A stretch of 64,000 bases of DNA, from positions 7,809,241 through 7,873,240 of the forward strand of contig NZ_JAUSQZ010000001.1 in NCBI RefSeq assembly GCF_030811555.1, given 5' to 3'. The stretch's first letter is position 1, and every line of letters starts with the position of its first letter. The notes beneath the pieces were generated by a model. The model did no database searches, was not told the DNA's origin, and saw nothing but the letters and a program-made list of their open reading frames with translations. Source of the stretch: Kineosporia succinea. GTDB taxonomy: Bacteria > Actinomycetota > Actinomycetes > Actinomycetales > Kineosporiaceae. Shown piece after piece: positions 18,110-40,263 of this stretch. Both the position numbers and the translations under genes were made by a program.

Positions 18110-18126
18110 AACGGCAACCTGGAGCG

Positions 18127-18666
18127 ATGGGCGACGCGGCGCTGCTCCGTCGCGTCAGCCGGGGCGACCGCGCGGCCTTCGACGAGCTGTACCGGCGCAC
18201 CTCCCCCTGGCTGCTGGTGCGGCTGCGCCGGCGCTGCAGCGACGACGACCTGGTGGCGGAGGTCCTGCAGGACACCTACCTGGCCGTCTGGCGGGCGGCG
18301 GGGTCCTTCTCCGGCCGGTCCGACGGCGAGGACACCTCGGCGGGCTGGCTGTGGACGATCGCCTCGCACCGGCTCGTCGACGCCTTCCGGCGGCGCGCGC
18401 GGCACGCGGCCGAGACCCCGACCGAGGAGGAGCCGCTGGTCGCCACCGAACCGGCGGCCGAGGACGTGGTGCTCCGGGGCCACGTGTCCGGCGAGATGGA
18501 ACAGGCGCTGCTCGCGCTGCCGCCGGAACTGCGGCAGGTCCTGTCCCACATGGTGCTCGACGGCCTGACCGCACGAGAGACGTCCGTGATGCTCGGCGTG
18601 GCCGAGGGCACGGTGAAGACCCGGGTCCGGCGGGCACGCCTGGCCCTCAGGGAGGCACTGTCATGA
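18127..18666 (+). CDS. ECF-type RNA polymerase sigma factor
   Basis: A 179-residue sigma factor with only regions 2 and 4. Region 2 (about 10-85) includes GDRAAFDELYRRTSPWLL, AEVLQDTYLAVWRAAGSF and GWLWTIASHRLVDAFRRRARH. Region 4 (about 120-178) has LPPELRQVLSHMVLDGLTARETSVMLGVAEGTVKTRVRRARLALRE. ATG 18127 fits the family's N-terminus. The strong GGGAGGTGA at 18101-18109 is 17 bases upstream, so GTG 18106 or another start is not excluded. The stop overlaps the anti-sigma start, the standard coupling of an ECF sigma with its inhibitor. Confidence 0.92.
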   Translation: MGDAALLRRVSRGDRAAFDELYRRTSPWLLVRLRRRCSDDDLVAEVLQDTYLAVWRAAGSFSGRSDGEDTSAGWLWTIASHRLVDAFRRRARHAAETPTEEEPLVATEPAAEDVVLRGHVSGEMEQALLALPPELRQVLSHMVLDGLTARETSVMLGVAEGTVKTRVRRARLALREALS

Positions 18667-19451
18667 ACACCCCTCACCCCGACGCCACCCTCATCGATCG
18701 CTACACCACGGGCGACCCGACGCTGGACGACGTGAGCGTCTGGTCGCTCGAGGCCCACCTCGAGTCGTGCGAACAGTGCCGGGCCCAGCAGGTTTCCGTC
18801 TTCCGGACCACGGGTGACGACATCCTCCAGCGGGTCGCGGCCGCCCTCGACGAGGGCATCGCCACCGGTCCCGGCCCCCAGCCGGTCCCCCGCCTCGCCG
18901 CGCGCCGCCGCTGGGCGGTGTGGTCGCTGATGCCCTGGCTGGCCATGACGTTCGGCATCCTGGCGGCCGCGCTCGGCCTGGGCGCGTTCGCCCCCGAGCA
19001 CCCCTCACCGGTGCTGCTGCTGGCCCCGGTGCTGCCGCTGCTGCCGGTCGCGGGCAGCTGGACCCGGTACAGCGACCCGGCCTGGGAACTGCTCGGCACC
19101 TCACCGCGCACCGGGCTGTGGATGCTCCTGCGCCGCAGCGTCGCCGCGCTGCTGCTGGTCATCCCCGTACTCCTGGCCGCGAGCTGGATCGTCGGTCTGG
19201 CCCCGGCCCTGTGGCTGCTGCCCTGCCTGGCCCTCACGCTCACCACCCTGGCCCTGAGCGACCGGTTCGGCGTCGTCCGTTCCGCCCTGAGCGTCTGGGC
19301 GCTGTGGACCGCGGGCGTCCTGGTCCCCGGCGTCGTGACCGCCGAGGTGCCCACCGTGCTCACCGCGTCCGCCACCCCCGTGTGGGCCGCCGCCACCGTG
19401 ATCGCCGCCGCCACCGTGGCCGTGCGCGCCCGCGGTTTCGCGCGCCTGTGA
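18663..19451 (+). CDS. Membrane anti-sigma factor with zinc-binding N-terminus
   Basis: A 262-residue protein translationally coupled to the sigma gene by ATGA. The N-terminal domain has the ZAS-type motif His32-x3-Cys36-x2-Cys39 (EAHLESCEQC), expected to bind zinc and hold the sigma factor. The rest contains about six membrane helices, more than the single helix of classical anti-sigma factors, so it may sense membrane state directly. An ABC exporter follows and may report or relieve the stress. Confidence 0.85.
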   Translation: MNTPHPDATLIDRYTTGDPTLDDVSVWSLEAHLESCEQCRAQQVSVFRTTGDDILQRVAAALDEGIATGPGPQPVPRLAARRRWAVWSLMPWLAMTFGILAAALGLGAFAPEHPSPVLLLAPVLPLLPVAGSWTRYSDPAWELLGTSPRTGLWMLLRRSVAALLLVIPVLLAASWIVGLAPALWLLPCLALTLTTLALSDRFGVVRSALSVWALWTAGVLVPGVVTAEVPTVLTASATPVWAAATVIAAATVAVRARGFARL

Positions 19452-19483
19452 ACCTCTTTCGAATGACGAAGGGACTCCCCCGC

Positions 19484-20277
<794 letters not shown>

Positions 20278-20278
<1 letters not shown>

Positions 20279-21603
20279 TGCGCGCCCTGCGGATCGAACT
20301 GCGCCGCTCGGTCACCGCCGGGCTCACTCTGCTCCTGCTCGCCGTCGGCCTGTTCAGCCTCTTCGGCGGCGGCAACTCCAGCAACCCGGCCGGCTGGGCC
20401 GCACTCGCCTACACCCTGCGCGACGCCCTGGTCATGATGTGGCCGCTGGCCGTCGGCGCCGGCGCCTGGCAGGCCCGCCGCGAGCAGATGGCCGGCCTCG
20501 GCGAACTCACCGGCACCAGCCCCCGGCCACCCGCGCGCCGACTCGTGCCCGTCGCCGTCTGCCTGGCCCTCGGCGTCGTCACCGCGTACCTGCTCAGCCT
20601 GCTGGCCGGCACCGTGCGCCTGTACCTGTCCCCCGCCGAGGCCTACCTGACCGGACCCGCCCTCGTCGCCACCGCCGTCGGCGCGCTCTCCCTCGTCGCC
20701 GCCACCTGGCTGGGCCTGGCCGCCGGGGCCCTGGCCCCCTCCCGCTTCACCGCGCCGATGGTCACCGTGCTCGCCCTCGCCCTGACCACCCTGCTGCCCG
20801 AACTCAGCATGCTCCGCGGCGGCCCCGACGCCGGCCTGCTCCTGCCCGGCCTGCACGCCCCGTTCCAGATGGACTGGGTCGAACTGCCGCTCGTCCTCAG
20901 CGGCAAGCAGGCGATCTGGCTGGCCGCGCTCGCCGTCACCGGGTACGGCCTGGCCGTGGCCCGGCGCCGCGGCACGAAACTGCTGGCCGCCGTGCCCGCG
21001 CTGGCCACCGCCGTGATCCTGGTGCCGACGCTGCCGGCCGCGAACGCCATGGACGCGCAGGGGCACTACGCCCGCGACGCCGAGGCGATGAGCCCCGTCT
21101 GCTCGGACGCCACCGGCGACACCCCCCGGGTGTGCGTCATGCGGGTGCACTCCGGGCTGCTGCCCGAGGTCACCGACCTGGGCCGCCGGATCCTGGAGAC
21201 CGCCTCGGTGCTCCCGGACGCGCCGACCTCGGCCCGCGAGGTCCCGGCCGGGGAGGGCACCGGCGACCCCCGGGTCGTGCCCATCTCGCTCTACCTCGAC
21301 GCCCGGGGCCACCTCGACGACCCCGACCAGATGGTCGCGATGTCCCTGGCCGACGTCGCCAGCCCCACCGACTGCGACGTCGACCTGCGCGACCCCGCCG
21401 ACGAGGGACGCTCGGTGGCCGGGGACCTCGCCACCCGCTGGCTCACCGACCGGGCCGGTGTCGAACCGAACTTCGTGTACTACCAGGAGACGTTCGACCG
21501 GGCCTGGGCCGTCTTCTCCGCCCTGCCCGCCGCGACGCAGGAAGAGCGGGTCGCCGCGTTCCGCGCCCAGGGCTGCGACGCCGGGCTGGACACGCTGGTA
21601 TGA
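20278..21603 (+). CDS. ABC transporter membrane protein with large extracytoplasmic region
   Basis: A 441-residue protein with six membrane helices in about its first 250 residues (LTLLLLAVGLFSLF, VTAYLLSLLAGTV, ALSLVAATWLGLAAGAL and others). The hydrophilic C-terminus of about 190 residues contains cysteines (VCSDATGDTPRVCVM and DCDVDLR) that could form disulfides outside. The position after an ABC ATPase gene (TGATG overlap) makes it the permease partner. The substrate is unknown. Confidence 0.75.
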
Positions 21604-22193
21604 ACGGCCTCGCCCTGCACCTGCGGGCCCGGCACACCCCCGCCGCCGCCGGGCTCGCGATCGGCGTCACCGGGCTGGTCTGGCTCGGCTGGAACGCCTT
21701 CTCCGACGCCGGCCGGATCGGTGAGAAGGTCGCGAGCGTCACCGTGGCCCTGGCCTGTGCGATCGTCTCGGTGACCCTGGCCCGCTACGACGAGTCCCTC
21801 GAGGAGAGCGGTGCCCGGCCCTGGTCACGGGTGCGCGGCCTGCACCTGCTGACCGCCTTCGTGCTCCTGTCGTGCCTGTTCACCGCGTTCGCCGCGACCC
21901 CGGTCGACTTCGGGCCGGCCGACTTCCTGGTGCGCGACACCGCCGGGCTGCTCGGCCTGGCCGCCTTCGGCGCCGCTGCCCTGGGCCCCTCGCGCGCCTG
22001 GTTCGGGCCCGTCCTGATCAGCGTCGTCGGTGCCGTCTGGGGCGGCGCCACCGACAGCCACGTCCTGCAGGTCCTGACCTGGATGACCCAGCCCGCCGAC
22101 ACCACCGCCGCCAGCGTCACCGCCGCCGTTCTCGCCCTTTCGGGAACCGTTGCCCACATGCGCGGACGCGTCTTCGCGCAAACGCGGGAGTAA
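21600..22193 (+). CDS. Small integral membrane protein of the ABC operon
   Basis: A 197-residue protein with about five to six membrane helices and no recognised domain. It starts in the stop of the preceding permease gene (ATGA) and is probably a second membrane subunit of the same transporter. It is the last gene of the sigma-controlled operon, followed by 278 non-coding bases. Confidence 0.65.
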   Translation: MNGLALHLRARHTPAAAGLAIGVTGLVWLGWNAFSDAGRIGEKVASVTVALACAIVSVTLARYDESLEESGARPWSRVRGLHLLTAFVLLSCLFTAFAATPVDFGPADFLVRDTAGLLGLAAFGAAALGPSRAWFGPVLISVVGAVWGGATDSHVLQVLTWMTQPADTTAASVTAAVLALSGTVAHMRGRVFAQTRE

Positions 22194-22471
22194 TTCTTTC
22201 TTCACCGTCCCGAAATACTCACCGGAATACCTTGCCACCAGGGCATTCAACGACCGGCGCGACCAGTGGGACCGATCAAATCAGTTGCGGAGCAATCCGG
22301 TTCGTGCGAGCGGCCGCTGACCGCACCGTCCATTGTTTGAATCCACATCAATAGCAACCGACTTGCCGACCGTGAGCCATCCGTTAACGTGATCGGGCGA
22401 TCGGGAGTTCATGCCGGCCACGGTGGGGAAACACGGGACGTGGCCCGGCCCGGCACCATGGGGGTTGCTTG
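22194..22471 (+). promoter_or_regulatory. Intergenic region with candidate SARP promoter
   Basis: This gap separates the ABC operon from the SARP gene. TTGCCG (22363-22368) and TAACGT (22385-22390) are 16 bases apart and fit a weak primary-sigma promoter reading toward the SARP gene. No clear terminator hairpin was found for the upstream operon. Confidence 0.3.
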
Positions 22472-23224
22472 ATGACGAACGATGCCCGGCGGTACGCGAT
22501 TCTCGGGCCACTGGACGTACGACTCGGCTCACGCCGCCTGGACGTACCCGCCGGACGGCAGAGAACCCTGCTGGCCACCCTGCTGCTCAACCCCAACCGG
22601 GTGGTCTCGGTCGACGAGATCGTCGACCGGGTCTGGGGCGAGCGGCCACCCCAGCGGCCCCGCGCCGCCCTGCACACCTACGTCACCCGGCTGCGGCACT
22701 CACTGGAACCACTGCCTCCGGTCGAGACCACCGCGGGCGGCTACCTCATCGAGACCGACGCGCACGAGTTGGATCTGCTGCGCTTCCGCGAACTCTCGGC
22801 CGAGGCCGAACGCGCCGACCGGCGCCACGACCTGGACACCGAGGCCCACCTGCTCGAGGCCGCCCTCGACCTGTGGCACGGCCCGCTCCTGCCCGACATC
22901 ACCTCCGACTCCCTGCGCCGCGACGTCCTGCCCACCCTGCACGAAGAACGCCTGCAGGTCGTCGAGCGCCGCAACGAGGTCGCCATCGAGCTCGGGCACC
23001 ACGACGACGTGGTCGCCGAGCTGAAGTCCCTCACCCACCGGCACCGCTACCGCGAAAAGCTCTGGCATCAACTCATGCTCGCCCTCTACCGGGGCGGGCG
23101 CACCGTCGAGGCCCTGCAGACCTACGGGCGGCTCACGAACCACCTGCGCGCCGAGTTCGGCGTCGACCCGGGCGACGACCTGCAGCGACTGCACCTGGCC
23201 ATCCTGCGCAGCGAACCACGGTGA
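22472..23224 (+). CDS. cinR1: SARP-family pathway-specific transcriptional activator (CinR1-like)
   Basis: A 250-residue SARP with an OmpR-like winged helix (about 8-95, YAILGPLDVRLGSRRLDVPAGRQRTLLATLLL and VVSVDEIVDRVWGERPPQRPRAALHTYVTRLR) and a bacterial transcriptional activation domain (about 100-245, LDLLRFRELSAEAERA to LQTYGRLTNHLRAEFGVDPGDDLQRLH). SARPs activate antibiotic operons by binding direct repeats spaced by one helical turn. It is convergent with the lanthipeptide exporter genes with no gap between stops, and three 11-bp-phased repeats lie upstream of the lanthipeptide operon. CinR1/KyaR1 of cinnamycin-type clusters is also a SARP. The ATG at 22472 has GGGG upstream. Confidence 0.88.
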   Translation: MTNDARRYAILGPLDVRLGSRRLDVPAGRQRTLLATLLLNPNRVVSVDEIVDRVWGERPPQRPRAALHTYVTRLRHSLEPLPPVETTAGGYLIETDAHELDLLRFRELSAEAERADRRHDLDTEAHLLEAALDLWHGPLLPDITSDSLRRDVLPTLHEERLQVVERRNEVAIELGHHDDVVAELKSLTHRHRYREKLWHQLMLALYRGGRTVEALQTYGRLTNHLRAEFGVDPGDDLQRLHLAILRSEPR

Positions 23225-24076
23225 TCACTCGGTGCGGGAGAAGCGGTGCGCGGCCACCGCCAGCACCACCACCACGAACCCCGCCACCAGTCCGAGCTCC
23301 AGCGGCACCGGCGGCACCCACCCGGCCCAGGAGACCGGCTCGGCGAGCCCGGCGTCGTCCACGAAAACGCCCACGGTGCGCCGCATCGCGTCGATCACGT
23401 AGGTCAGCGGGTTGACCAGGGCCAGGGCCGCCATCCAGGCCGGCATCGCGGCCAGCGGGAACATCGCGCCGGACAGGAACAGCAGCGGCGTCACGATCAC
23501 CCCGAGCACGGTGTTGAACGTGGTCAGGCGCCGGATCGTGACGGCCACCACCGCACCGGTCACGGTCATCGCCATCGACGCCAGCAGCAGCTCCGCGAAC
23601 AGGAGAACGAAGAGATCGGGCCGGTAGGGAACCCCGACCAGACCGGCCGCCGCCAGCACCACCGCGCCCTGCACGGCCGCGACCGTGGCGCCGCCCAGGC
23701 ACTTGCCGACCAGCACCGTGCTGCGGCGCACCGGGGCCACGAGCATCTCGCGCAGGAAACCACTCTGGCGGTCCCAGACGATCGAGGCCCCGACCGAGAT
23801 CGCCGGTGCCTGCGACGCCATCACCAGCACCCCCGGGAAGAGGAACACCAGGTAGGCCTCACCCGTGGCGCTGTCACCACCGACCGAGGCCAGCAACCGC
23901 GACAGCCCGACCCCGAGCACGAGCAGGAACAGGAACGGCTGCAGCAGCGACATCACCGCCCGGGTGCGGTCGCGGGCCAGGTGGATCATCTCGCGGGTCC
24001 AGATCATCCGGGCCGCGCGCAGTTCGTGACGCAGGCCCCCGTTCTCCCTTTCGCCGAGCAGGGTCATGGAAATCAT
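23225..24076 (-). CDS. cinH: ABC-2 type permease of the lanthipeptide exporter (CinH-like)
   Basis: A 283-residue membrane protein with six predicted helices and the ABC-2 permease signature (GFLREMLVAPVRRSTVLVGKCLGGATVAAVQGAVV, ending in NPLTYVIDAMR). With the ATPase encoded three bases upstream it should export the mature lanthipeptide or its precursor, and may contribute self-protection. It is the last gene of the minus-strand operon. Order and type match cinT-cinH at the end of the cinnamycin operon. ATG 24067 is an alternative start. Confidence 0.85.
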   Translation of the reverse strand: MISMTLLGERENGGLRHELRAARMIWTREMIHLARDRTRAVMSLLQPFLFLLVLGVGLSRLLASVGGDSATGEAYLVFLFPGVLVMASQAPAISVGASIVWDRQSGFLREMLVAPVRRSTVLVGKCLGGATVAAVQGAVVLAAAGLVGVPYRPDLFVLLFAELLLASMAMTVTGAVVAVTIRRLTTFNTVLGVIVTPLLFLSGAMFPLAAMPAWMAALALVNPLTYVIDAMRRTVGVFVDDAGLAEPVSWAGWVPPVPLELGLVAGFVVVVLAVAAHRFSRTE

Positions 24077-24079
24077 GTC

Positions 24080-25009
24080 CTAACGGATACGCCGGCCGGT
24101 GTGGTGCATGAACACGTCGTCCAGGCTGGGCCGGGTCACGGACACCTCGAACACCGGCACGTCGAGCCCGGCGCACAGACGGGGCACGAGGCGGGCGCCG
24201 TCCTTCGCCCGGATCCGCAACCCGGCCCGCCGTTCTCCGGCGAGTTCAGCGTCCAGACCGAACTTCTCACGAACGGCCCGGACGGCCGACCCGTCGTCCC
24301 CGGTGCGCAGCTGCACGAGATCCGCCCCGATCACGGCCTTCAGCGCGTCCGGAGTGCCCTGGGCCACGATGCGGCCGTCGTCGATGATCGCGATGCGGTC
24401 GCACTGCTCGGCCTCGTCGAGGTAGTGCGTGGTGAGAAACAGCGTGGTGCCCTCACTCTCACGCACCCGGCGCAGGTGTTCCCACACGCCGTTACGGGTC
24501 TGCGGGTCGAGGCCGACCGTGGGCTCGTCGAGGAACAGCACCCGGGGCCGGTGCAGCAGGCCCCGGGCGATCTCCAGGCGGCGCCGCATGCCGCCCGAGA
24601 AGGTGCCGGCCACGTCATGCTCGCGCTCGAGGAGGCCGACCAGCTGAAGCATCTGGGTGATCCGCTGCTTCACCTGGGCGCGGGGCACCGCGTACAGGTC
24701 GGCGTGGAATCTCAGGTTCTCCGCCGCCGTCAGCTCACCGTCGAGCGTGCTCTCCTGAAAGACCAGACCCAAGAGCTTACGGACGCGTGTGGGCACCTTC
24801 TGCACGTCCAGCCCGGCGATCTCGATGCGGCCCGCGGTGGGGCGCACCAGCGTGGTCAGCATCGAGATCGTGGTGGACTTGCCCGCGCCGTTCGGGCCGA
24901 GGAACCCGAAGGTCTCCCCCGGCCCGACGGCGAGGTCGATGCCCCGCACCGCGTGCGTGGTGCCGTAGGACTTGTGCAGGTCCTCGACGAGGATGGCCGG
25001 CGCACTCAT
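24080..25009 (-). CDS. cinT: ABC transporter ATPase of the lanthipeptide exporter (CinT-like)
   Basis: A 309-residue DrrA-type ATPase: Walker A GFLGPNGAGKSTTISML, signature FSGGMRRRLEIARG, Walker B VLFLDEPTVGLDP, and a C-terminal extension of about 80 residues ending in PSLDDVFMHHTGR, as in daunorubicin-resistance ATPases. It starts at ATG 25009, overlapping the hydroxylase stop (ATGA), and is followed at once by the permease gene. It should power export of the cinnamycin-like product. Confidence 0.88.
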   Translation of the reverse strand: MSAPAILVEDLHKSYGTTHAVRGIDLAVGPGETFGFLGPNGAGKSTTISMLTTLVRPTAGRIEIAGLDVQKVPTRVRKLLGLVFQESTLDGELTAAENLRFHADLYAVPRAQVKQRITQMLQLVGLLEREHDVAGTFSGGMRRRLEIARGLLHRPRVLFLDEPTVGLDPQTRNGVWEHLRRVRESEGTTLFLTTHYLDEAEQCDRIAIIDDGRIVAQGTPDALKAVIGADLVQLRTGDDGSAVRAVREKFGLDAELAGERRAGLRIRAKDGARLVPRLCAGLDVPVFEVSVTRPSLDDVFMHHTGRRIR

Positions 25010-25920
25010 CAGCGCACCCGGATCTTGTCCTGCCAGTCGTCCGGCACGACGAACCCGAAACTCCAGCGGTGACGGTCGGTCGGGTTGACGATGCAGTGCC
25101 AGAACAACCGGTCCGGGTCCTGCTCGGCCTTGAAGAACCGCACGATGCGCGGCTTCTCGTGCAGGGTCACGATCTGGCCGGTCTGCGGGTTCTGGTAGCG
25201 GAAGAACGAGGTGTCGTGCTCGTTCTCGAACGGCTCGTCGAGATCGACCACGTACATCCGCCAGCCCGGCTGGGTCTCGTTGGTGTGCCACAGGCGGTAG
25301 CTGTGCGGCGGGTACCACATGCTGCCGGAGAACCGGATCTCGGAGTCGAACAGGTTCTCCAGCGCGCCGATCGTGCGGGTCTTGGCGTCGAAGTACTCGT
25401 CGTAGCCCGGGTACTCGGTGTGGTCGTCGAGGTTGACCAGGTGGAAGTCGCGGCGCAGGGTGTGCTGGTTGCCCTGTGGGTCGAGGTAGCCCTCCTCCAT
25501 CATCGTGCGGTGCCACTCCTGGTACTCCGGGCCGGCCGGGGAGCGGTTGGTGGAGGCGGCGTCGTCGGGACGGTAGCTGCGGTCGAACTCGGCCAGGTCG
25601 ACCGTGGGCGGGCGCACCTTCAGGCGGGGCAGCTCGTCGATGACGGCCTCGAAGCCGGGGATGTCCTCCAGGCTGTACTCGTGGTGGAGGAAGGTGGTGT
25701 TCCTCGGCTGCGGCGATGTCGTGACGGGCGCTTCGGGCGCTTGAGCCGCGGGCCGGTAGAACGTCGACGCCTCGCGGAAATCGTTGGCGGTGAAGTCGAA
25801 CCCGTGCCGGTGGCCCAGGCGCACCACCTCCTCGATACCGGTGACGGCCTTGAGCTGCTGCGCCACCGAGGGGGTTCCGTTCAGAACCTTCAGGAAGGCC
25901 TCGGATGCTTGGACGGACAT
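25009..25920 (-). CDS. cinX: CinX-like peptide aspartate hydroxylase with N-terminal Nif11-like domain
   Basis: A 303-residue protein in the position of cinX/durX, the Fe(II)/2-oxoglutarate enzyme that hydroxylates Asp15 of cinnamycin. Residues 1 to about 52 match the Nif11 pattern (SEAFLKVLNGTPSV, then GIEEVVRLGHRHGFDFTANDF), a domain better known as a RiPP leader. The rest looks like a 2-oxoglutarate oxygenase: SMWYPPHSYRLWHTNETQPGW with His212 as a likely iron ligand, RLFWHCI with His275, and RWSFGFVV, whose Arg285 could bind 2-oxoglutarate. The Asp at core position 15 of the precursor supports the role. It lies 11 bases after lanM and overlaps the exporter ATPase start. Residue roles are inferred. 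Confidence 0.82.
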   Translation of the reverse strand: MSVQASEAFLKVLNGTPSVAQQLKAVTGIEEVVRLGHRHGFDFTANDFREASTFYRPAAQAPEAPVTTSPQPRNTTFLHHEYSLEDIPGFEAVIDELPRLKVRPPTVDLAEFDRSYRPDDAASTNRSPAGPEYQEWHRTMMEEGYLDPQGNQHTLRRDFHLVNLDDHTEYPGYDEYFDAKTRTIGALENLFDSEIRFSGSMWYPPHSYRLWHTNETQPGWRMYVVDLDEPFENEHDTSFFRYQNPQTGQIVTLHEKPRIVRFFKAEQDPDRLFWHCIVNPTDRHRWSFGFVVPDDWQDKIRVR

Positions 25921-25931
25921 GAGGTTTCTCC

Positions 25932-28900
25932 TTATCGGTTGTCAGTACCAGGTGAATCGAGCAGGAGCACCGACGGCACCTGACCGGGGCGGGCCAGACG
26001 CAGGAAGTGCATCCCGAAACCGGACAGACCGAGCATGAGCCCGGGGAAGAACCCGGCCGTGCCCTCGGAGGTGCCGGCCAGGGCCTCGTCGACGTTGCGC
26101 CACTGGCTCTGCACCTGCACGTTGGCCTCGAGCTGGAACGCGGGCTCGTCGTTCAGCAGGGCGAATCGCAGCAGCAGCTCGGCGTTTCCGGAACGGCCGT
26201 GGCACAACGTGTCGTTGCGCAGTTGCGGGAAGTTGCGCATGGTCGCGGCCAGGCCCTGATGAGCCTCGCGCAGCAGGGGTTCGTCGTCGCGACCGAGCAG
26301 GTCCCAGGCCGAGATACGGCTCAGGCCGATGCCCGCGGCGCCGTTGCACCAGGCGTTCGCGTAGTGGCGGCCGTTCTTCTCCAGCCCGCCGCCGCTGCGC
26401 CGCAGGTCGTACCAGTCCTGCTCGTCGCCGTCGTAACGGGTTGCCTCGTAGGCGAACGCCTGCTTGCCGGCCGCGATCCAGCGCTCCTCACCGAGGGTGC
26501 GGCCGAGCAGGATCAGGGCCCAGCCCATGCCTCCGGCGCCGTGCGAGAATCCGGTCAGGCTCGCCGAGGCCTCGTCCGGGTCGGTCAGAGGCCAGCTGAG
26601 CACGCCGCCGTCACCGGGGATGGCGGCGTCCAGCAGGCGCTCCCCACACCGACGGGCCAGGTCGTGCTGACCGAGGCCCAGCAGCACCGGCACCAGACCG
26701 GCGCAGCCGCCGAGGATGTCGAACCGCCGGTCGCGCTCGATCAGCGGCTCCAGACGGTTCCCGAGCTCGAGGGCCGTGCGGGTCAGGTGCTCGTCGTCCC
26801 AGAGCCGGCCGAGGTGGTTCAGCGTGTACATCAGCCCACCGATGCCCTGGAACGCGCCGGGCTGATTCAGGTCGGTGGTGCGCAGGGCGTGTTCCAGACC
26901 CCGCCGGGCGGCCGCGCGGAACCGTGGATCGGGCCGGGCCGCGTCGAGATGGGCCAGGAAGAAGGCCATTCCGGCCGAGCCGTGATACAGGTCGCCGTCG
27001 ACGTCGACCTTGCTCAGCCCGTCCGGGCCGGCGATGTCCCACGAGGCCCAGGGAGCACCGTCGGTGCGCATCTGCTCGAGCAGGTGTTCACCGATGCGGG
27101 CGGCGTAGTCGGTGCAGGTGTCCACGAACGCCGGGTTGCTGATCTCGGCCGCGGACAGGCTCGCGGTGATGTAACGCCGCTGCTGCTCGCGGTTGTGGTG
27201 GTCCAGGCGGGCGATGCGGCGTGCGGCGAACTCGACCGGGCTGACGTCGAGGGGGCTGTCGAGGGGCTCGGCGTGGTCGTGCACCAGGGCGTGGGCGTCG
27301 CCGCGGGCGGTGAAGATGGGCACGTCGAGCTGCCACATCGAGGCCAGTTCGCGGTCGGCGAGCACCCCGCCGGTGTCCCAGGTGCGCGGGAACGTGCGCA
27401 CGGTGCCGAACAGCCAGTCGACCTCGAGCGGGTCGATCAGGCAGCGCGGGTGCCGGGCCTGGGCGATCAGCTGGGTGTAGATCTGGGTGCCCCAGTTGAT
27501 GAACCGGATCGGTGCGTCCCGGAACAGGTCCCGCACGATGCCCTGGGTGCGCGCGGGCTCGGCGCCGAACCAGTCGTAGACCTGCCCGAAGCCCTCCAGG
27601 ATGTCGTCGACGTGGTCCTCGGGCCGGACCAGCTCACCGTCGAGGAACACCCGGTTCGCGGCGTCGGGCTCGACCCGGATGCCGGCCTCGTGCGTCACCG
27701 CGGTCTCGAAACTCAGCGCCCTGCCGGTGATCCGGGCGACCGGCACGGGCATGTCGTAGGCCTCGCCCCCGGCGTAGCCGCTGATGCGCATCGTGCCCTC
27801 GGCGGGCTGGCCGGCGGTGGGCCACTCGAGCAGGGCGGTCTTGAACACCGAGTCCAGCAGGGTGCCCTCGGGACGGTGCTGGCCGGTCGGGAGCACGCCG
27901 AGCACGGTCTCGCAGTCGCACACGTGAGCGTGACCGTCGGCGACGATGATGTTCTCGAGGTGCAGGTCTCCCCCGCCGAGCACGTAGAACGCGGCCAGGT
28001 GGGCGCCGAGGTCGCGGTAGACCTGGCGCACCTCGTGCTCGTCGCGGGCGTGGTTGCGGCCGCCGGGAACCATTTCCTCGTAGCCGTACCCGGGGCGCAG
28101 GATCACGCGGCGCCCGGCCGAGCCGGTGCCGGCCTCCGCGGCCAGGCGGGTGAGCAGCTCCTGCACGGCGGCCTCGGCACTGATGTCGCGGGGCTTGTAG
28201 ACGATGGACGACGGGCCGCTGTCGGTCAGCAGGTCGACCATGACCACGGTGCGGGCACCGGCGTGGTGGTCGGACTGGCCGGGACGGACCGCCCTCACCT
28301 GCCGGATCGGGCCGGTCAGGGTGGCCAGGACCGGGCGGTCGGCGTCGAGGCGGGTCAGCAGGTCGCGGCCGTTGCGCGCGGCCAGGTGGGTGGCGCGGGC
28401 CAGCCAGCGCCCGAGCACCGGGTAGCGCAGGTAGAACTCGTGGTAGGCCTCCTCGTCGCGGAAGGTGTCGCGCAGGAAGTCCAGGTAGTCGGGCGGGTTC
28501 TCGCCGTGCCGGCTGAGACAGACCTTGGCCTCGGTCTCCATCGCCCAGGCCAGGGGCAGCTCGAACCGGTCGAGCAGGGTGTCGCGCAGGGTCTCGACCA
28601 CCTCGTCGGCGAAGTCCAGCGTGGTGCCGGTGACGGCGTCGCGGAGCTCTCGCTCGAGCAGGTCGAGGAACGGGGCGGCCACGATCGCCAGGCGCTGGTA
28701 GCGCGGGCGGGCCGGGGGCCGGTAGCCGCTGAGCGCGGCCCGGTAGGTGGGCAACCAGCTCTGGTGCACCTCCTCGAGGTGGGCGACCGGCGCGTCCGCC
28801 GTTCGGGCCTCAAAACGACGGTAGAGATCGAGCACCCGGGTGATGCCCTCGCTGTCACGACGGGGCGGGTGGTTACGGTGCAGGGCCTCCTGGGCGAACT

Positions 28901-29102
28901 TGGCCGCGATGCGGGTGGACGTGCGCTCGGTCCACCAGGACTCGAAAGCATCCGGCCCGGGCGCACTTTCGAGCATTCCGAGACAGCCGTCACGTTCCAG
29001 GCGCTCGATCACGGCGGTGCGCTCGGCGAGATTGGCGGCACGGGCCGCGAGACGCAGGCCCCGGTCAGTTCCTGATGTACTGCGGACCGCGGTGGCCGTC
29101 AT
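25932..29102 (-). CDS. lanM: Class II lanthipeptide synthetase LanM (CinM-like)
   Basis: A 1056-residue bifunctional enzyme. The N-terminal dehydratase (DUF4135 type, about 100-560, including VVMVDLLTDSGPSSIVYKPRD and GGGDLHLENIIVADGHAHVCDCETVLG) phosphorylates and eliminates Ser/Thr of the precursor. The C-terminal LanC-like cyclase (about 690-1040) adds Cys thiols to the dehydro residues; its zinc ligands are Cys919 (AWCNGAAGIGL) and Cys967-His968 (LCHGRSGN). The start at ATG 29102 has GGAGAGGAAG upstream; the frame is open further up but covers a hairpin. It lies 99 bases after the precursor gene. Product: a labionin-free, multiply bridged cinnamycin-type peptide (inferred from the core). 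Confidence 0.96.
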   Translation of the reverse strand: MTATAVRSTSGTDRGLRLAARAANLAERTAVIERLERDGCLGMLESAPGPDAFESWWTERTSTRIAAKFAQEALHRNHPPRRDSEGITRVLDLYRRFEARTADAPVAHLEEVHQSWLPTYRAALSGYRPPARPRYQRLAIVAAPFLDLLERELRDAVTGTTLDFADEVVETLRDTLLDRFELPLAWAMETEAKVCLSRHGENPPDYLDFLRDTFRDEEAYHEFYLRYPVLGRWLARATHLAARNGRDLLTRLDADRPVLATLTGPIRQVRAVRPGQSDHHAGARTVVMVDLLTDSGPSSIVYKPRDISAEAAVQELLTRLAAEAGTGSAGRRVILRPGYGYEEMVPGGRNHARDEHEVRQVYRDLGAHLAAFYVLGGGDLHLENIIVADGHAHVCDCETVLGVLPTGQHRPEGTLLDSVFKTALLEWPTAGQPAEGTMRISGYAGGEAYDMPVPVARITGRALSFETAVTHEAGIRVEPDAANRVFLDGELVRPEDHVDDILEGFGQVYDWFGAEPARTQGIVRDLFRDAPIRFINWGTQIYTQLIAQARHPRCLIDPLEVDWLFGTVRTFPRTWDTGGVLADRELASMWQLDVPIFTARGDAHALVHDHAEPLDSPLDVSPVEFAARRIARLDHHNREQQRRYITASLSAAEISNPAFVDTCTDYAARIGEHLLEQMRTDGAPWASWDIAGPDGLSKVDVDGDLYHGSAGMAFFLAHLDAARPDPRFRAAARRGLEHALRTTDLNQPGAFQGIGGLMYTLNHLGRLWDDEHLTRTALELGNRLEPLIERDRRFDILGGCAGLVPVLLGLGQHDLARRCGERLLDAAIPGDGGVLSWPLTDPDEASASLTGFSHGAGGMGWALILLGRTLGEERWIAAGKQAFAYEATRYDGDEQDWYDLRRSGGGLEKNGRHYANAWCNGAAGIGLSRISAWDLLGRDDEPLLREAHQGLAATMRNFPQLRNDTLCHGRSGNAELLLRFALLNDEPAFQLEANVQVQSQWRNVDEALAGTSEGTAGFFPGLMLGLSGFGMHFLRLARPGQVPSVLLLDSPGTDNR

Positions 29103-29133
29103 GGTTCTTCCTCTCCTGTCGAGACGTCCGGGA

Positions 29134-29168
29134 CCGGTGGGCCGGCCGGATGACGACCGGCCCACCGG
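29134..29168 (-). terminator. Hairpin between lanthipeptide precursor and lanM (attenuator)
   Basis: A perfect 12-bp stem, CCGGTGGGCCGG (29134-29145) with CCGGCCCACCGG (29157-29168), has an 11-base loop and lies between the precursor stop and the lanM ribosome-binding site. It probably causes partial termination or RNA stabilisation, giving more precursor than enzyme. Confidence 0.65.
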
Positions 29169-29201
29169 ACAACTGGCGGAGTTGCCTGACTGCCCGAGGT
29201 G

Positions 29202-29438
29202 TTACTTGGTCGTACCGTCACAGATGGCGGTGATCGGGCCCCAGCTGCAGCTGGTCTGGCAGGCGTAGATCTCCAGGGAGGAAACCCCCTCGGTGAAGAA
29301 GTCGAGCGACTTCTGGTCCGGGGCCTCGACCTCGGCGGGCAGAGCGCCCGCGGTGGCACCGAACCTCACCGGGTCGGCCTCGATGAGGGCGCGGAACTCG
29401 CTGTCGACAGCGGCCTGCTGGAGAAGCGTCGTGTTCAT
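29202..29438 (-). CDS. lanA: Cinnamycin/duramycin-type lanthipeptide precursor
   Basis: A 78-residue precursor with a 59-residue leader, the length of the cinnamycin leader, and a 19-residue core CQTSCSWGPITAICDGTTK. Cinnamycin is CRQSCSFGPFTFVCDGNTK. All ring residues are kept: Cys1-Thr18, Ser4-Cys14, Cys5-Thr11, Ser6-Lys19 (lysinoalanine) and Asp15 (hydroxylation). The leader keeps the acidic and FGA-containing pattern of the family (VDSEFRALIEADPVRFGATA, then DQKSLDFFTE) and ends in IYA before Cys1, where signal-peptidase-like cleavage is known for cinnamycin. Positions 2, 3, 7, 10, 12, 13 and 17 differ. A strong GAGGAGG ribosome-binding site precedes the ATG at 29438. It is the second gene of the operon. 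Confidence 0.96.
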   Translation of the reverse strand: MNTTLLQQAAVDSEFRALIEADPVRFGATAGALPAEVEAPDQKSLDFFTEGVSSLEIYACQTSCSWGPITAICDGTTK

Positions 29439-29488
29439 GTGTGCCTCCTCGATCGCGAAACGGGTCGTACCACTAACCGCAGGTGCGG

Positions 29489-29848
29489 CTAGACCTTTTC
29501 GGCCGCCAGCCGGAATCCGGACGCGCGCTCGACGGCGCGCAACTCGTCCATGGCGGCGGCCATGCTCTCGCTGGTGCCCTGGAACCGCAGGAGGTGACGC
29601 TCGGCCAGGCCGGCGTGGCCGCCCAGCCAGATCTCCTCGAGCCAGCCCTTCATGGTGTGCGGGTGGGTGTCGGGCACCGGGTTCACCCGTGGGGTCACGG
29701 TCTCGGCCGGGACGTCGAGGGCCAGGCGCAGGGCGCGGGCCATCTCGCCGTCGGAGGGCAGCATGGACGCGAGAACCAGCAGTTCCTGGACCTCGCGGAT
29801 GGTGTCGACGCCGGGATAGATCGTCGGGACCTTCGCGCTCTTCATCAT
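29489..29848 (-). CDS. cinorf7: Cinorf7/DurN-like lysinoalanine-forming protein
   Basis: A 119-residue soluble protein directly upstream of the precursor gene, with no common domain except the cinnamycin-cluster family to which Cinorf7 and DurN belong. DurN catalyses the final addition of Lys19 to dehydroalanine 6 in duramycin. Size and synteny (N-A-M-X-T-H order) and the presence of Ser6 and Lys19 in the core support this assignment; no sequence alignment could be run. Readable landmarks are KSAKVPTIYPGVDTIREVQEL and HPHTMKGWLEEIWLGGH. GGAAGGAGAGC precedes the paired ATGs at 29848 and 29845. It is the first gene of the lanthipeptide operon, just downstream of the SARP-like repeats. Confidence 0.8.
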   Translation of the reverse strand: MMKSAKVPTIYPGVDTIREVQELLVLASMLPSDGEMARALRLALDVPAETVTPRVNPVPDTHPHTMKGWLEEIWLGGHAGLAERHLLRFQGTSESMAAAMDELRAVERASGFRLAAEKV

Positions 29849-29888
29849 GCTCTCCTTCCGGGCCGTTCCCTTCCTGCTGACGTGAATG

Positions 29889-29932
29889 AACCTACGCAGG
29901 GCGGCTTTCAGGACGCTTTCACTGTTCTTTCA
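29889..29932 (-). promoter_or_regulatory. Three 11-bp-phased direct repeats and -10 box upstream of the lanthipeptide operon
   Basis: On the minus strand TGAAAG occurs three times (29932-29927, 29921-29916 and 29910-29905) at an exact 11-bp period, twice as AGTGAAAG. A TAGGTT -10-like hexamer (29894-29889) follows about ten bases later. This is the layout of SARP operators, which replace the -35 box, and a SARP gene lies at the other end of the cluster. Confidence 0.7.
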
Positions 29933-30061
29933 CTGGCGTGCACCCGGTGGGGTAGTCTCGGGCACAGCATCGCGCGCCGGTGGCAGTCCGTGTCAGGCGT
30001 GGAGGTGCCGGAGCCAGAAGGAGGTCGACGTCGATGGCGTCACTCCCTTCGCCCTCCCTCC

Positions 30062-30511
30062 GTGTCTGAGGGCGGCGAGAAGACCAGGCTGGTGGCCTGG
30101 GGTCAGGAACTACGCCGGGTGCACGCCCGGCTGCGTGAGGCTCTGAGCGTCACGCTGTCCACCTCGGATCCCCGTGACCTGCTGCTGTTCTGTCACGGGT
30201 TCTGCTCGGCGCTCGACGGGCATCATCGCGGCGAGGACCGCACCCTGTTCCCGGCGATCGCGGCGGCGCACCCCGAACTGCAAGACACCCTGCGCAATCT
30301 CGAGCAGGACCACTCGATGATCGCGCACCTGCTGTCCGGCCTGCAGAGCGCGGTCGACCGTTCGGCCTCACCGGAACAGCTGCGGCGGCACCTGCGGAGC
30401 GTGGCCCCGATCATGGAGAACCACTTCCGCTACGAGGAGCGGGCTCTGCTCACCGTGCTGGAGGGCCTGACGCTGGACGCGTCCGGGACGCAGGTCCTGG
30501 GTCCCCTGTGA
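30062..30511 (+). CDS. Hemerythrin HHE-domain protein
   Basis: About 149 residues of a four-helix hemerythrin-like protein with the expected di-iron His/Glu pattern: FCHGFCSALDGHHRGEDRTLFPAI, LEQDHSMIAHLL and MENHFRYEERALL. It may bind O2, NO or act in redox sensing. The start is uncertain. GTG 30062 has no ribosome-binding site, but a short frame beginning at ATG 30034 behind AGAAGGAGG ends in a stop (30067-30069) overlapping this GTG, so reinitiation from a leader peptide is possible; GTG 30005 is another candidate. It is divergent from the lanthipeptide operon and probably unrelated to it. Confidence 0.8.
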   Translation: MSEGGEKTRLVAWGQELRRVHARLREALSVTLSTSDPRDLLLFCHGFCSALDGHHRGEDRTLFPAIAAAHPELQDTLRNLEQDHSMIAHLLSGLQSAVDRSASPEQLRRHLRSVAPIMENHFRYEERALLTVLEGLTLDASGTQVLGPL

Positions 30512-30539
30512 CCGACGGCCCGGTCCTAGGATGGCGTCC

Positions 30540-31130
30540 ATGCAGGAGAACCTCTGGCTGCGCCGGATCGAGGACAACCCCGGTCACTCGCAGTGGTACA
30601 TCGACCGGTTCCGCGCGATGGCGGCCCAGGGGGCCGACCTGAACGGCGAGGCGCGCATGGTGGACGCGATGGTCCCCCGGGGGTCGCGGATCCTGGACGC
30701 GGGGTGTGGTCCGGGACGTCTGGGTGGGCATCTCGCCTCGCTCGGCCACGAGGTCACCGGGGTCGACATCGACCCCGCGCTCATCGCGGCGGCCGAGCAG
30801 GACTTCCCGGGCCCGGCCTGGCGGGTGGGTGACCTGTCGCAGCTCTCGCTGCCGGGTGCGGGCTTCGACGTGATCGTCTGCGCCGGCAATGTGATGACGT
30901 TCTGCGCGCCCTCCACGCGGGGCGAGATCCTGCGCCGTTTCCGGCAGCACCTGGCACCGGGAGGCCGGGCCGTGGTCGGTTTCGGCGCCGGGCGCGGTTA
31001 CGAGTTCGACGACTTCCTCGGTGACGCGAACCGGGCCGACCTGGTGGCCGACCTGCTGCTGAGCACCTGGGACCTGCGGCCTTTCACGCCCGACGCGGAC
31101 TTCGTCGTGGCGGTGCTGAGCGCAGCCTGA
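30540..31130 (+). CDS. Class I SAM-dependent methyltransferase
   Basis: A 196-residue enzyme with the SAM-binding glycine loop in ILDAGCGPGRLGGHLA, the acidic ribose-binding end of strand 2 in VTGVDIDPALI, and post-motif strands FDVIVCAGNVMTF and HLAPGGRAVVGFGAGRGY. It belongs to a family widespread in actinobacteria that opens with ENLWLRRI and lacks an assigned substrate; ATG 30540 gives that N-terminus (ATG 30531 is the alternative). It starts 28 bases after the hemerythrin gene and may be cotranscribed. Confidence 0.85.
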   Translation: MQENLWLRRIEDNPGHSQWYIDRFRAMAAQGADLNGEARMVDAMVPRGSRILDAGCGPGRLGGHLASLGHEVTGVDIDPALIAAAEQDFPGPAWRVGDLSQLSLPGAGFDVIVCAGNVMTFCAPSTRGEILRRFRQHLAPGGRAVVGFGAGRGYEFDDFLGDANRADLVADLLLSTWDLRPFTPDADFVVAVLSAA

Positions 31131-31167
31131 GACTCGGGCCGGGCGCAGCACCGCGTCGTCGCAGGGC

Positions 31168-31578
31168 TCAGTCGCTCTTGAACACCTCGTTGCAGAGGTA
31201 CTTCGTGCCGGTGTCGGGGCCGGTCCAGATCCAGGTGACGACCTTGGCGACGTTGTTGTGGTTGACCGCGTTCTCGTAGACCAGCGGCGACGAGCTCTTC
31301 TTGGTGAGCGACAGGTTCGGGCCGCTCGAGCCGTCCCGGTAGATGATCCAGATCTTCGACTCGGAGACCCGGATGGCCTTCTCGGCCTCCACCGTGAAAC
31401 CGGTCTGCGAGCGGCCGTTCTGGTCGGAGTAGGTGGCCTCGACCCACAGGCTGTTGTTGGGGTTCTCGTTGCAGCTGGTGCCCTTGACGTAGGTGTAGGC
31501 CGCCTCAGCCGGAGCGGCGAAGGCGAGCACCGCGGTCGACGCGGCGAGCGCACCCACGGCCAACGATCTGAATCGCAC
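31168..31578 (-). CDS. Small secreted protein of unknown function
   Basis: A 136-residue protein with a clear signal peptide (MRFRSLAVGALAASTAVLAF, cleavage near APAEA-AYTY) and a mature domain of about 108 residues rich in beta-strand patterns, Trp and Asn. Two cysteines (SCNE near the start, LCNE near the end) probably form one disulfide. I do not recognise the family. The GTG start at 31578 has AAGGGG seven bases upstream. It is monocistronic between convergent and divergent neighbours. Confidence 0.75.
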   Translation of the reverse strand: MRFRSLAVGALAASTAVLAFAAPAEAAYTYVKGTSCNENPNNSLWVEATYSDQNGRSQTGFTVEAEKAIRVSESKIWIIYRDGSSGPNLSLTKKSSSPLVYENAVNHNNVAKVVTWIWTGPDTGTKYLCNEVFKSD

Positions 31579-33746: not shown

Positions 33747-33813
33747 GACACTCCTCGGGCCGGGGTGAATACCCTTATACGTCACCATTCGATTCAAGTT
33801 CCAGGGGTTGGTC

Positions 33814-35379
33814 GTGCGCGGGGCGAGCTGGCAGCGGCTGACCTATGAGATCGGGCTGGCGCTGTTCTGCGGTCTGGGCACCGCGGTGGTGCATCTGGAG
33901 CTGACCTACGACCCGCCGCAGGACTCGATGGCCTCGGCGATCGGGTTCGCGGTGCTGGGGTTCTTCGCCTCGGTGGCGCTCGTGCCGTTGCGGTTGGTGC
34001 GGCCGCTGAGCGCGCTGATGATCTGTGGCCTGCTGTCGGTCGCGATGGGCGGGTTCAGTCTCACGCTGGTGCCGTTGAGCGCGTCGGTGGGCTACCGGGC
34101 GTGGCGGTCGGTGCCGATCGTGCTGGCCTATCTGACGGTGCTGGTCGGGTGCGTCGGCGGGATCTACCGGGTGACGGGTTTCCCGCTGCTGACGTCGTTC
34201 CTGCTGGGCCTGATGGAGTTCAGCGCGTTCGTGCTGCTGCCGGGGGCGGTCGCGGCGATGGTCGCGCAGCGGCGTCTGCTGGTGATGACCATGCACCAGC
34301 GCAACCTGGAGCTGCACGCCGAGCGCAGGCTGGCGGTGGGTCAGGCGCAGACCCGCGAGCGCAACCGGATCGCGGCCGAGCTGCACGACTCGCTGGGGCA
34401 CCGGCTGACGCTGATCTCGCTGTACGCGGGTGGTCTGGCGCAGGCTCCGGCGGTGGCCGGGGACGCGCCCGCCCCGGAGCGGCAGCAGGCGCTGGGGCTG
34501 TTGCGGGACACCTCGGCGCAGGCGATGGGTGAGCTGCGGCAGATCCTGCGGATCCTGCACCAGGACGGTGCGGACCCCGAGGGCGGACGTTCGCTGGCGC
34601 AGGTGGAGGACACGGTCGCCTCGGCGCGGGGCACGGGGACGCGGGTGGATCTGGTGCGGGTCGGCGAGGCCCGTCCGCTGCCGTTGCTGGCCGAGCACGC
34701 GGCGTATCGGGTCGTGCAGGAAGGGATCACGAACGCGCTCAAGCACGCCGGGGGTGCGCCGATCCGGGTGGAGGTCCGGTACGAGGACGACGCGTTGTTC
34801 GTCGAGGTGCGCAACGGGCCGGGCCGTGCCTACGAGGGGCAGAGCACGGGTCAGGGCCTGGCGGGGCTGGCCGAGCGGGTGCGTCTGGCCGGTGGGGTGC
34901 TGTCGTCGGGGCCGCTGATCTCCGAACCTTCCGCCGGGGGCGGCTTCCGGGTGGGCGCGGTGCTGCCGTACGAGGGTGAGGTGCCCGAGGCGGCGCCCGA
35001 GCCGGAGGGCGACTTCCCGGGTGAGCTGCGACGCAGCACCCGCCGTCAGCAGATCGGGGCGGTGGCGGTGGTGACGTCGATCGTGCTGAGCCTGGGCTCG
35101 TGCGTGGGGTCGATCGTGGTCCCGATCCCGCCGGACACGGTGTCGCAGAACGAGTTCGACCGGTTCGCGGTCGGCGCGCCCGAGTCCGACGTGCGGGACA
35201 TGACGCCGCGCTCGTCGTGGTGGACGGAGGACGACGTGGGCGACGGGAAGGTCTGCGAGTACTACATGGCGAGCCCGTCGGTGGAGCCCCGCAGCGCCGA
35301 GGCGGTCGAGGTGCACTTCGTGTTCTGTTTCCGCGACGGGGTTCTCGTCGAGAAGCGTGCCGACGACATCACCGAGTAG
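33814..35379 (+). CDS. NarL-type sensor histidine kinase with extra C-terminal membrane helix and outer domain
   Basis: A 521-residue kinase: about five or six N-terminal membrane helices (residues 8-155), a HisKA_3 dimerisation region with RNRIAAELHDSLGHRLTLIS (phospho-His in the LHD motif), and a HATPase domain with EGITNALKHAGG and GQGLAGLAERVRLAGG. Unusually, another membrane helix (about 415-440) and an approximately 80-residue extracytoplasmic domain follow. FDRFAVGAPESDVRDMTP and VHFVFCFRDGVLVEK in it recall small BamE/SmpA-like domains. No response-regulator gene is adjacent, so it is an orphan kinase. The GTG at 33814 has AGGGG upstream. Its 3' end overlaps the convergent AraC gene by 11 bp. 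Confidence 0.85.
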   Translation: MRGASWQRLTYEIGLALFCGLGTAVVHLELTYDPPQDSMASAIGFAVLGFFASVALVPLRLVRPLSALMICGLLSVAMGGFSLTLVPLSASVGYRAWRSVPIVLAYLTVLVGCVGGIYRVTGFPLLTSFLLGLMEFSAFVLLPGAVAAMVAQRRLLVMTMHQRNLELHAERRLAVGQAQTRERNRIAAELHDSLGHRLTLISLYAGGLAQAPAVAGDAPAPERQQALGLLRDTSAQAMGELRQILRILHQDGADPEGGRSLAQVEDTVASARGTGTRVDLVRVGEARPLPLLAEHAAYRVVQEGITNALKHAGGAPIRVEVRYEDDALFVEVRNGPGRAYEGQSTGQGLAGLAERVRLAGGVLSSGPLISEPSAGGGFRVGAVLPYEGEVPEAAPEPEGDFPGELRRSTRRQQIGAVAVVTSIVLSLGSCVGSIVVPIPPDTVSQNEFDRFAVGAPESDVRDMTPRSSWWTEDDVGDGKVCEYYMASPSVEPRSAEAVEVHFVFCFRDGVLVEKRADDITE

Positions 35380-39478: not shown

Positions 39479-40188
39479 GCGCGGCCCTCGACATACGCTC
39501 CGTCACCGCCGGATACGGCGCCGAACCGGTGCTGCACGACCTCGACCTGAGCATCCCCGACGGCCAGGTCGTCACCCTCCTGGGAGCCAACGGCGCCGGC
39601 AAGACCACCCTGCTGCGCGCCGTCTCCGGCCTCATGCCCACCACCGGCTCCGTGCACCTGCGCGGCCGCGACATCAGCCGGCTCGACCCCGAGCAGCGCG
39701 TGCGCCAGGGCCTGGCCCACGTCCCCGAAGGCCGCGGCGTCATCACCGAGCTCACCGTCGACGAGAACCTCCGCCTGGGCGGTCTGTGGCGCCACGACCG
39801 CACCACGCTGCGCCAGCACATCGACGCCGAGTACGAACGCTTCGAACCCCTCGCCCGTCGCCGCCACGCCCTGGGCCACCAGCTCTCCGGCGGCGAACGC
39901 CAGATGCTCGCCCTCGCCCGCGCCCTCGTGGCCACCCCCGACGTGCTCCTGCTCGACGAGCCCTCGCTCGGCCTCGCCCCCCAGGTCGTTCACACCATCA
40001 TGCAGACCCTGCGCCAGGAGTGTGACCGCACCGGCCTGACCGTCCTGCTCGCCGAACAGAACGCCGCCAGCGCCCTTTCCGTCGCCGACCGGGGCGTCGT
40101 GCTGCACCTCGGCCGGATCCGCACCGACGGCCCCGCCGCCCACATCGCCCAGGACGACGCCCTCCGACACGCCTACCTCGGTTACTGA
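39475..40188 (+). CDS. livF: Branched-chain-type ABC transporter ATPase (LivF-like)
   Basis: A 237-residue ATPase with Walker A TLLGANGAGKTTLLRAV, signature HQLSGGERQMLALARAL, Walker B VLLLDEPSLGLAP and the LivF-typical HVPEGRGVITELTVDENL. It pairs with LivG to power the LivH-LivM permease. It starts in the livG stop (ATGA). Confidence 0.92.
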
Positions 40189-40263
40189 AAGGGCCTTGAA
40201 AGGGCACCGAAAGCAACCGCACGCCATAGACCATCACTGACCCGGCCACCGAAAGGCCACCGC

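Follow-up and report, generated by a model that had tools for sequence, protein, structure and literature searches.

A complete cinnamycin-type lanthipeptide cluster in Kineosporia succinea, and a possible immunity through membranes devoid of phosphatidylethanolamine

How does a bacterium that would make a peptide directed against phosphatidylethanolamine (PE) live with its own product? The question is raised by a locus of Kineosporia succinea that lies in the stretch of 64,000 nucleotides analysed here, which we call the window. In Streptomyces cinnamoneus self-protection is ascribed to CinL, which methylates PE under the control of CinKR (PMC5408092). The best explanation of what the present locus contains, and one that we hold with considerable confidence, is a complete and intact cluster for a new class II lanthipeptide of the cinnamycin family, which would mature by the steps proposed below in a host made immune by the lack of PE.

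The gene from which the case starts is cinA (29202..29438, minus strand), a reading frame of 237 bases running from ATG to TAA. Its product of 78 residues consists of a 59-residue leader ending in EIYA and a 19-residue core, CQTSCSWGPITAICDGTTK. It matches NCBIfam NF033431 (cinnamycin_RiPP) with 95.6 bits (cut-off 35) and Pfam PF19398 (DurB-like) with 89.4 bits (cut-off 26.6), and no other gene of the host genome (8,065,021 bases, a single contig) matches NF033431. The core fits the pattern C..[ST]C[ST].GP.T..CDG.[ST]K, that is, it holds the residues for three thioether rings, the lysinoalanine and the hydroxy-Asp. To judge from these matches cinA is a cinnamycin-family precursor, far beyond chance, and the predicted product of the cluster is a new member of that family (class II), a type of lanthipeptide already known. 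The initial annotation had proposed just such a precursor of 59 + 19 residues without naming a strand, and both family models bear it out; the residues that it listed as common with cinnamycin hold true for the cinnamycin core that we used in the comparison. The duramycin core yields an [M+2H]2+ of 1006.926, equal to the published value (PMC6974636). As for the novelty claimed for the core, a search of PMC full text with core strings returned no identical one, its sole match being rubrominin through CDGTTK only, but three genomes have cores that agree with it at 18 of the 19 positions.

The cluster also holds homologues of the modification enzymes that such a peptide needs, together with all the modifiable residues, as had been expected of it. 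Upstream of cinA, on the same strand, lies a homologue of DurN, cinN (also cinorf7 or durN; 29489..29848, minus), coding for a putative lysinoalanine synthase of 119 residues (PF19375, 97 bits; E 2.1e-28 against the lysinoalanine synthase of PDB 6c0g). Downstream of cinA, the class II lanthipeptide synthetase LanM is represented by cinM (25932..29102, minus; TIGR03897, 496 bits): in an alignment of 30 sequences C919, C967 and H968 of its product are invariant, and these we take to be the zinc-ligand motif of LanC. Then come cinX (25009..25920, minus), the Asp15 hydroxylase homologue, with 303 residues and an N-terminal Nif11 domain (PF07862, 35.8 bits), and the two genes of an ABC exporter, cinT for a DrrA-like ATPase (24080..25009, minus; TIGR01188, 313 bits) and cinH for an ABC-2 permease (23225..24076, minus; PF01061, 106 bits). 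A cinX homologue follows cinM in 25 related clusters, 20 of which were taken into an alignment, and this synteny, together with homology to the hydroxylase gene that PMC5408092 describes, suggests that CinX is the Asp15 hydroxylase. No oxygenase match was obtained for CinX by sequence, Nif11 being the only domain recognised, and a PDB profile search with the CinX alignment gave a Nif11 protein as the only match. The Nif11 leader-like domain occupies the N-terminus (25770-25920) and was aligned over 21 homologues; RumX is termed a Nif11 family protein in the rubrominin paper (PMC6165096).

Read in this way, the cluster is a complete and intact operon for a lysinoalanine synthase, a LanM, a hydroxylase homologue and an ABC exporter. 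In the pathway that we propose, CinM would dehydrate Ser4, Ser6, Thr11 and Thr18 and would form three thioether rings, 1-18, 4-14 and 5-11, a pairing that we assume to be that of cinnamycin; CinX would hydroxylate Asp15, and CinN would link dehydroalanine 6 to Lys19. The leader would be cut off after EIYA, and CinTH would export the mature peptide, which would grip PE in the membranes of competitors.

As in S. cinnamoneus, a SARP gene and three repeats before cinN are present. The cinR1-like activator gene (Trans_reg_C and BTAD domains; 22469..23224, plus; PF03704, 134 bits) is convergent with cinH, and its product is 81% identical to its counterpart in G009, a genome of the same genus. The proposed binding site (29905..29932, minus), upstream of cinN and 10 nt before TAGGTT, reads TGAAAG-N5-TGAAAG-N5-TGAAAG, three repeats at a spacing of 11 nt with 0 mismatches; in 100 shuffles, at a tolerance of up to 3 mismatches, the expected mean was 0.00. 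In S. cinnamoneus CinR1 is proposed to target three repeats that precede cinorf7 and are set one helical turn from each other (PMC5408092). When the best triple upstream of cinN was scored in 26 clusters (maximum 18), it reached 15-18 in all 11 that have an adjoining SARP gene and 9-12 in the 15 that have none, so that site and activator come and go together. The SARP, once bound to the triple repeat, would switch on cinN-A-M-X; a scan of 29090-30100 for sigma-70 promoters and terminators found none. Elsewhere in the window a second near-perfect triple (40186-40213, plus, 1 mismatch), which may be a further SARP target, precedes by about 50 bases the gene at 40264 for a branched-chain amino acid permease-like protein.

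Between cinA and cinM a hairpin (29134..29168, minus) is a candidate attenuator, like the attenuator hairpin reported at that place in the cinnamycin cluster (PMC5408092). It folds with a z of -3.71, and its 12-bp stem was reached by none of 1000 plain shuffles; Rfam gave no match over 22000-31500, hairpin included. The stem motif GGTGGGCC...GGCCCACC follows cinA in 12 of 31 clusters and turns up one further time at another place in the loci fetched (L077), while some related clusters have a different hairpin, or none that is clear, between the two genes. Conservation extends to the sequence of the stem and not only to its shape, and no T-run follows it here; perhaps it is a sequence-specific element for processing or termination. 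Its effect would be to hold the transcripts for CinN and the precursor above those for CinM and CinX.

The resemblance to cinnamycin and duramycin of S. cinnamoneus covers the order cinN-A-M-X, T-H and the core residues (PMC5408092, PMC6974636), as well as the SARP, the three repeats and the hairpin (PMC5408092). The differences are the seven substitutions in the core relative to cinnamycin, the convergent orientation of the SARP gene and the lack of any recognised cinKR or cinL beside the cluster. Enzymes and core pattern are likewise shared with the rubrominins of Actinomadura sp. RB29, coerumycin and kyamicin (PMC6165096, PMC12837462, PMC6974636), but the residues of the rubrominin core differ (PMC6165096) and the kyamicin cluster carries kyaK/R/L (PMC6974636). 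To the left of the SARP gene (18046-22193) we read genes for an ECF sigma factor, a zinc-finger anti-sigma-like protein and an ABC ATPase/permease operon; considered as cluster members, they were judged unrelated; nothing next to the G009 cluster matches the ECF sigma factor or one permease at more than 45% identity. A plasmid search gave no match.

To place the core within its family we relied on NF033431 searches of overlapping genome sets, which matched 2 of 13 genomes in the family of the host, 6 of 394 in its class and, in other sets, 1 of 35 and 33 of 297 (28 of them over the cut-off), and on a contig search with the single precursor, which produced a good locus and a doubtful one (L003 was left out). 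The resulting canonical set comprises 27 cores, the window's and those of 26 relatives, after removal of the duplicate L056; it does not include four His-rich cores or the weak matches L067-L072. Positions 1, 5, 8, 9, 11, 14, 15, 16 and 19 are invariant in the set, and positions 4, 6 and 18 are Ser or Thr throughout. The seven substitutions relative to cinnamycin that the initial annotation presented as new do differ from it, but each residue occurs in other cores of the family: counting the window, Q2 is found in 4 of the 27, T3 in 11, W7 in 8, I10 in 5, A12 in 4, I13 in 5 and T17 in 13. Nor does Thr3 stand out as an extra dehydratable residue, for all the cores that lack Thr there (16) have Ser. 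The core of rubrominin A contains eight Ser or Thr (2, 3, 4, 6, 7, 11, 17, 18), and its observed mass of 1914.739 comes closest to four dehydrations plus one oxygen (1914.7455 calculated; PMC6165096). This makes five dehydrations unlikely in the window's peptide, in which Thr3 is probably unmodified; with four, the predicted mature peptide has a calculated monoisotopic mass of 1914.806, and its [M+2H]2+ is expected at 958.410. The suggestion that loss of Phe10 and Phe12 alters lipid selectivity is weakened too. Position 10 is other than Phe in 9 of the 27 cores and position 12 in 17, and the published hydrogen bonds to PE at residues 10-13 come from the backbone, the PE amine touching backbone carbonyls and hydroxy-Asp15 (PMC8183687). 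An altered membrane insertion is possible.

We now come to the survival of the host. Within 18046-38667, where reading frames were read and some were scanned against Pfam, neither a cinKR pair nor a PmtA-like gene was recognised, points on which the initial annotation had been silent, as it had on the SARP gene and its site, the hairpin and the lipid genes of the host. A PmtA-like query met with no homologue in the host genome, and no immunity-like family was common to at least four loci among the 36 fetched and the window (families named by reading). PS decarboxylase (Psd, PF02666) was not found in the host either. Its best PssA-like protein scores 39 bits against the PssA model and 131-178 bits against five phosphatidylcholine-synthase models, below their cut-offs of 300-440, and is rather phosphatidylcholine-synthase-like; the host's PF04191 match, considered as a PE methyltransferase, fits a DUF1295 protein better (225.8 versus 34.7 bits). 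The polar lipids tabulated for Kineosporia are PC, DPG, PI and PIM (PMC7472656, Table 3). A host with no recognisable PssA and PS decarboxylase would be expected to survive its own peptide, and most likely it is protected because PE is not made.

The lack of Psd is shared by most producers that we sampled. PF02666 was searched in 34 genomes (23 + 11), of which 27 carry a canonical core. Psd is missing from 20 of these 27, namely the host, G009, the four tested of genus g181 and the 14 tested of g142, which suggests an intrinsic immunity by PE-free membranes; it is present in G218, G133, G374, G504, G481, G459 and G351. The remaining seven genomes are four of the host's genus without cluster, all lacking Psd, and three with His-rich cores, all having it. 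As only 129 of the 394 sampled genomes of the class possess Psd, its absence is a trait of lineages, not an adaptation. In the set of 23 genomes, PssA matches of at least 103 bits (cut-off 107, five lying above it) occur only in G218, G133, G374, G504, G481 and G459; elsewhere, G351 and the host included, they reach at most 41 bits. In G481 and G459 a PmtA-like methyltransferase gene comes directly after cinH, and since its product is below the cut-offs of both the ornithine-lipid methyltransferase model (96 bits) and PmtA (52), its substrate is uncertain. Homologues exist elsewhere in the genomes of G218, G133, G374 and G504 (E 7e-14 to 3e-10), while G351 and the six genomes of the host's genus have none; in the Psd-less G545 the homologue is strong (E 2.5e-45), and weak matches (E 4e-6 to 2e-4) occur in five further Psd-less producers. 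That most producers of cinnamycin-type peptides are immune through making no PE, the inducible methylation of PE in Streptomyces then being a special solution for hosts that contain PE, is a proposal towards which the balance leans slightly, and we did not find it in the titles and abstract openings of the open-access papers that our searches listed.

A separate family of clusters should be mentioned here. L063 (9980-15434) and L064-L066 combine a cinnamycin-type leader and homologues of CinM and CinTH with a His-rich core, CPSTHHCNHTYACHPTY or CPATHHCIHTHVCRKTY, without any match to cinN or cinX, and by this composition encode a cinnamycin-descended lanthipeptide of another kind. Psd is present in the three g40 genomes concerned (L064-L066) and absent from G546 (L063).

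Two rival accounts, one of the immunity and one of the target, must be weighed against the reading given so far. One is that the host contains PE and is defended by a dedicated gene, be it the methyltransferase at 30531-31130, CinTH or a PE-modifying enzyme that escaped recognition. It is true that next to cinN the hemerythrin gene is followed by one for a class I methyltransferase, that 33808-35379 codes for a histidine kinase, and that immunity in S. cinnamoneus is the work of a PE methyltransferase (PMC5408092). Yet the methyltransferase is conserved in all six genomes of the genus, four of which have no cluster, and was rejected as immunity gene on that ground; the families that it matches best do not include PmtA, and the PmtA-like query found no homologue in any of the six. 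The kinase (33808) and the methyltransferases at 30531 and 36475 are among the genes judged unrelated to the cluster, and we consider such a defence unlikely. The other account would have the altered hydrophobic face (Trp7, Ile10, Ala12) direct the peptide to a lipid other than PE. Seven of the 19 positions do depart from the cinnamycin core, and a host predicted to be PE-free would not betray the target through self-toxicity; but all nine family-invariant residues are kept, Asp15 included, and contacts with PE at 10-13 involve the backbone (PMC8183687), which leaves this reading most improbable. The reading that we retain is that of a predicted PE-binding peptide in a host probably free of PE.

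There remains the origin of the core. The three genomes that match it at 18 of 19 positions are Actinoallomurus purpureus (L002) and two others under the same genus handle, g181 (L048, L054), the single difference being M17 in L002 and V13 in the other two. They too have SARP and repeats and lack Psd, but their SARP gene lies upstream of cinN; the papers that our searches listed showed no product report for their clusters. Since the core is kept at this level while CinM is only 56-59% identical and the leader agrees at 33-34 of 59 positions, it must be under selection. Synonymous change has touched 5, 7 and 8 of the 17 core codons, roughly as much as in the remaining operon; the core that these genomes share must therefore be old, and its recent horizontal transfer into the window was rejected. 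A special acceleration of CinN with the core was also considered and dropped, CinN being the fastest of the compared genes even between L048 and L054, whose cores are identical. The cluster of the same-genus G009 (L004, L037) behaves in the opposite manner: its CinM (73%), CinX (80%) and leader (53 of 59) are close to those of the window, but its core, CESSCSFGPFTIVCDGGTK, is unlike the window's at all seven variable positions. It has the same SARP site, and on one side its neighbours are those of the window's cluster, the genes for hemerythrin, the methyltransferase and two dehydrogenases, from which it is separated by an additional reading frame of 844 residues. In an NF033431 search the cluster was absent from four other genomes of the genus, which in the 20 kb considered keep a match to the methyltransferase and hemerythrin genes in all four (short in G007), to the first dehydrogenase in three and to the second in one. 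By its leader sites the window belongs with G009 (19-20 versus 0), by its core sites with the Actinoallomurus-type precursors (0 versus 6), a conflict with a Fisher p of about 5e-6. This would be accounted for if recombination had replaced the core, the window receiving one of Actinoallomurus type or G009 a different one. The synonymous divergence just given speaks against any recent arrival in the window, and a six-gene IQ-TREE of 18 clusters, which sets the window and G009 clusters beside those of Actinoallomurus (UFBoot 100), points rather to a core that is ancestral and was replaced, or changed fast, in G009, and fits plain retention with rapid change there; a FastTree of CinM and CinX disagrees, placing them with L044/L045 (0.993). 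On this evidence replacement of the core is a tentative idea, and on the doubtful side.

With reference to applications, duramycin serves for the study of PE in membranes (PMC5408092) and has reached phase II trials (PMC6974636), so that studies of lipid binding would find a variant ready for use in this natural core, which bears Trp7, Ile10 and Ala12 and is conserved across two genera. The main interest of the locus lies in the hypothesis of a PE-free producer and in the conflict between leader and core, neither of which is visible from the window alone. The relevant passage of the coerumycin paper leaves open the immunity of its Actinomadura producer (PMC12837462), and the missing genes for immunity and PE synthesis provide a testable answer to that question of self-protection. 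If the proposal is true, a PE-free lineage would incur no cost to itself, clusters could settle in it without immunity genes, and cores would be free to diversify in place, as they may have done in the two clusters of this genus.
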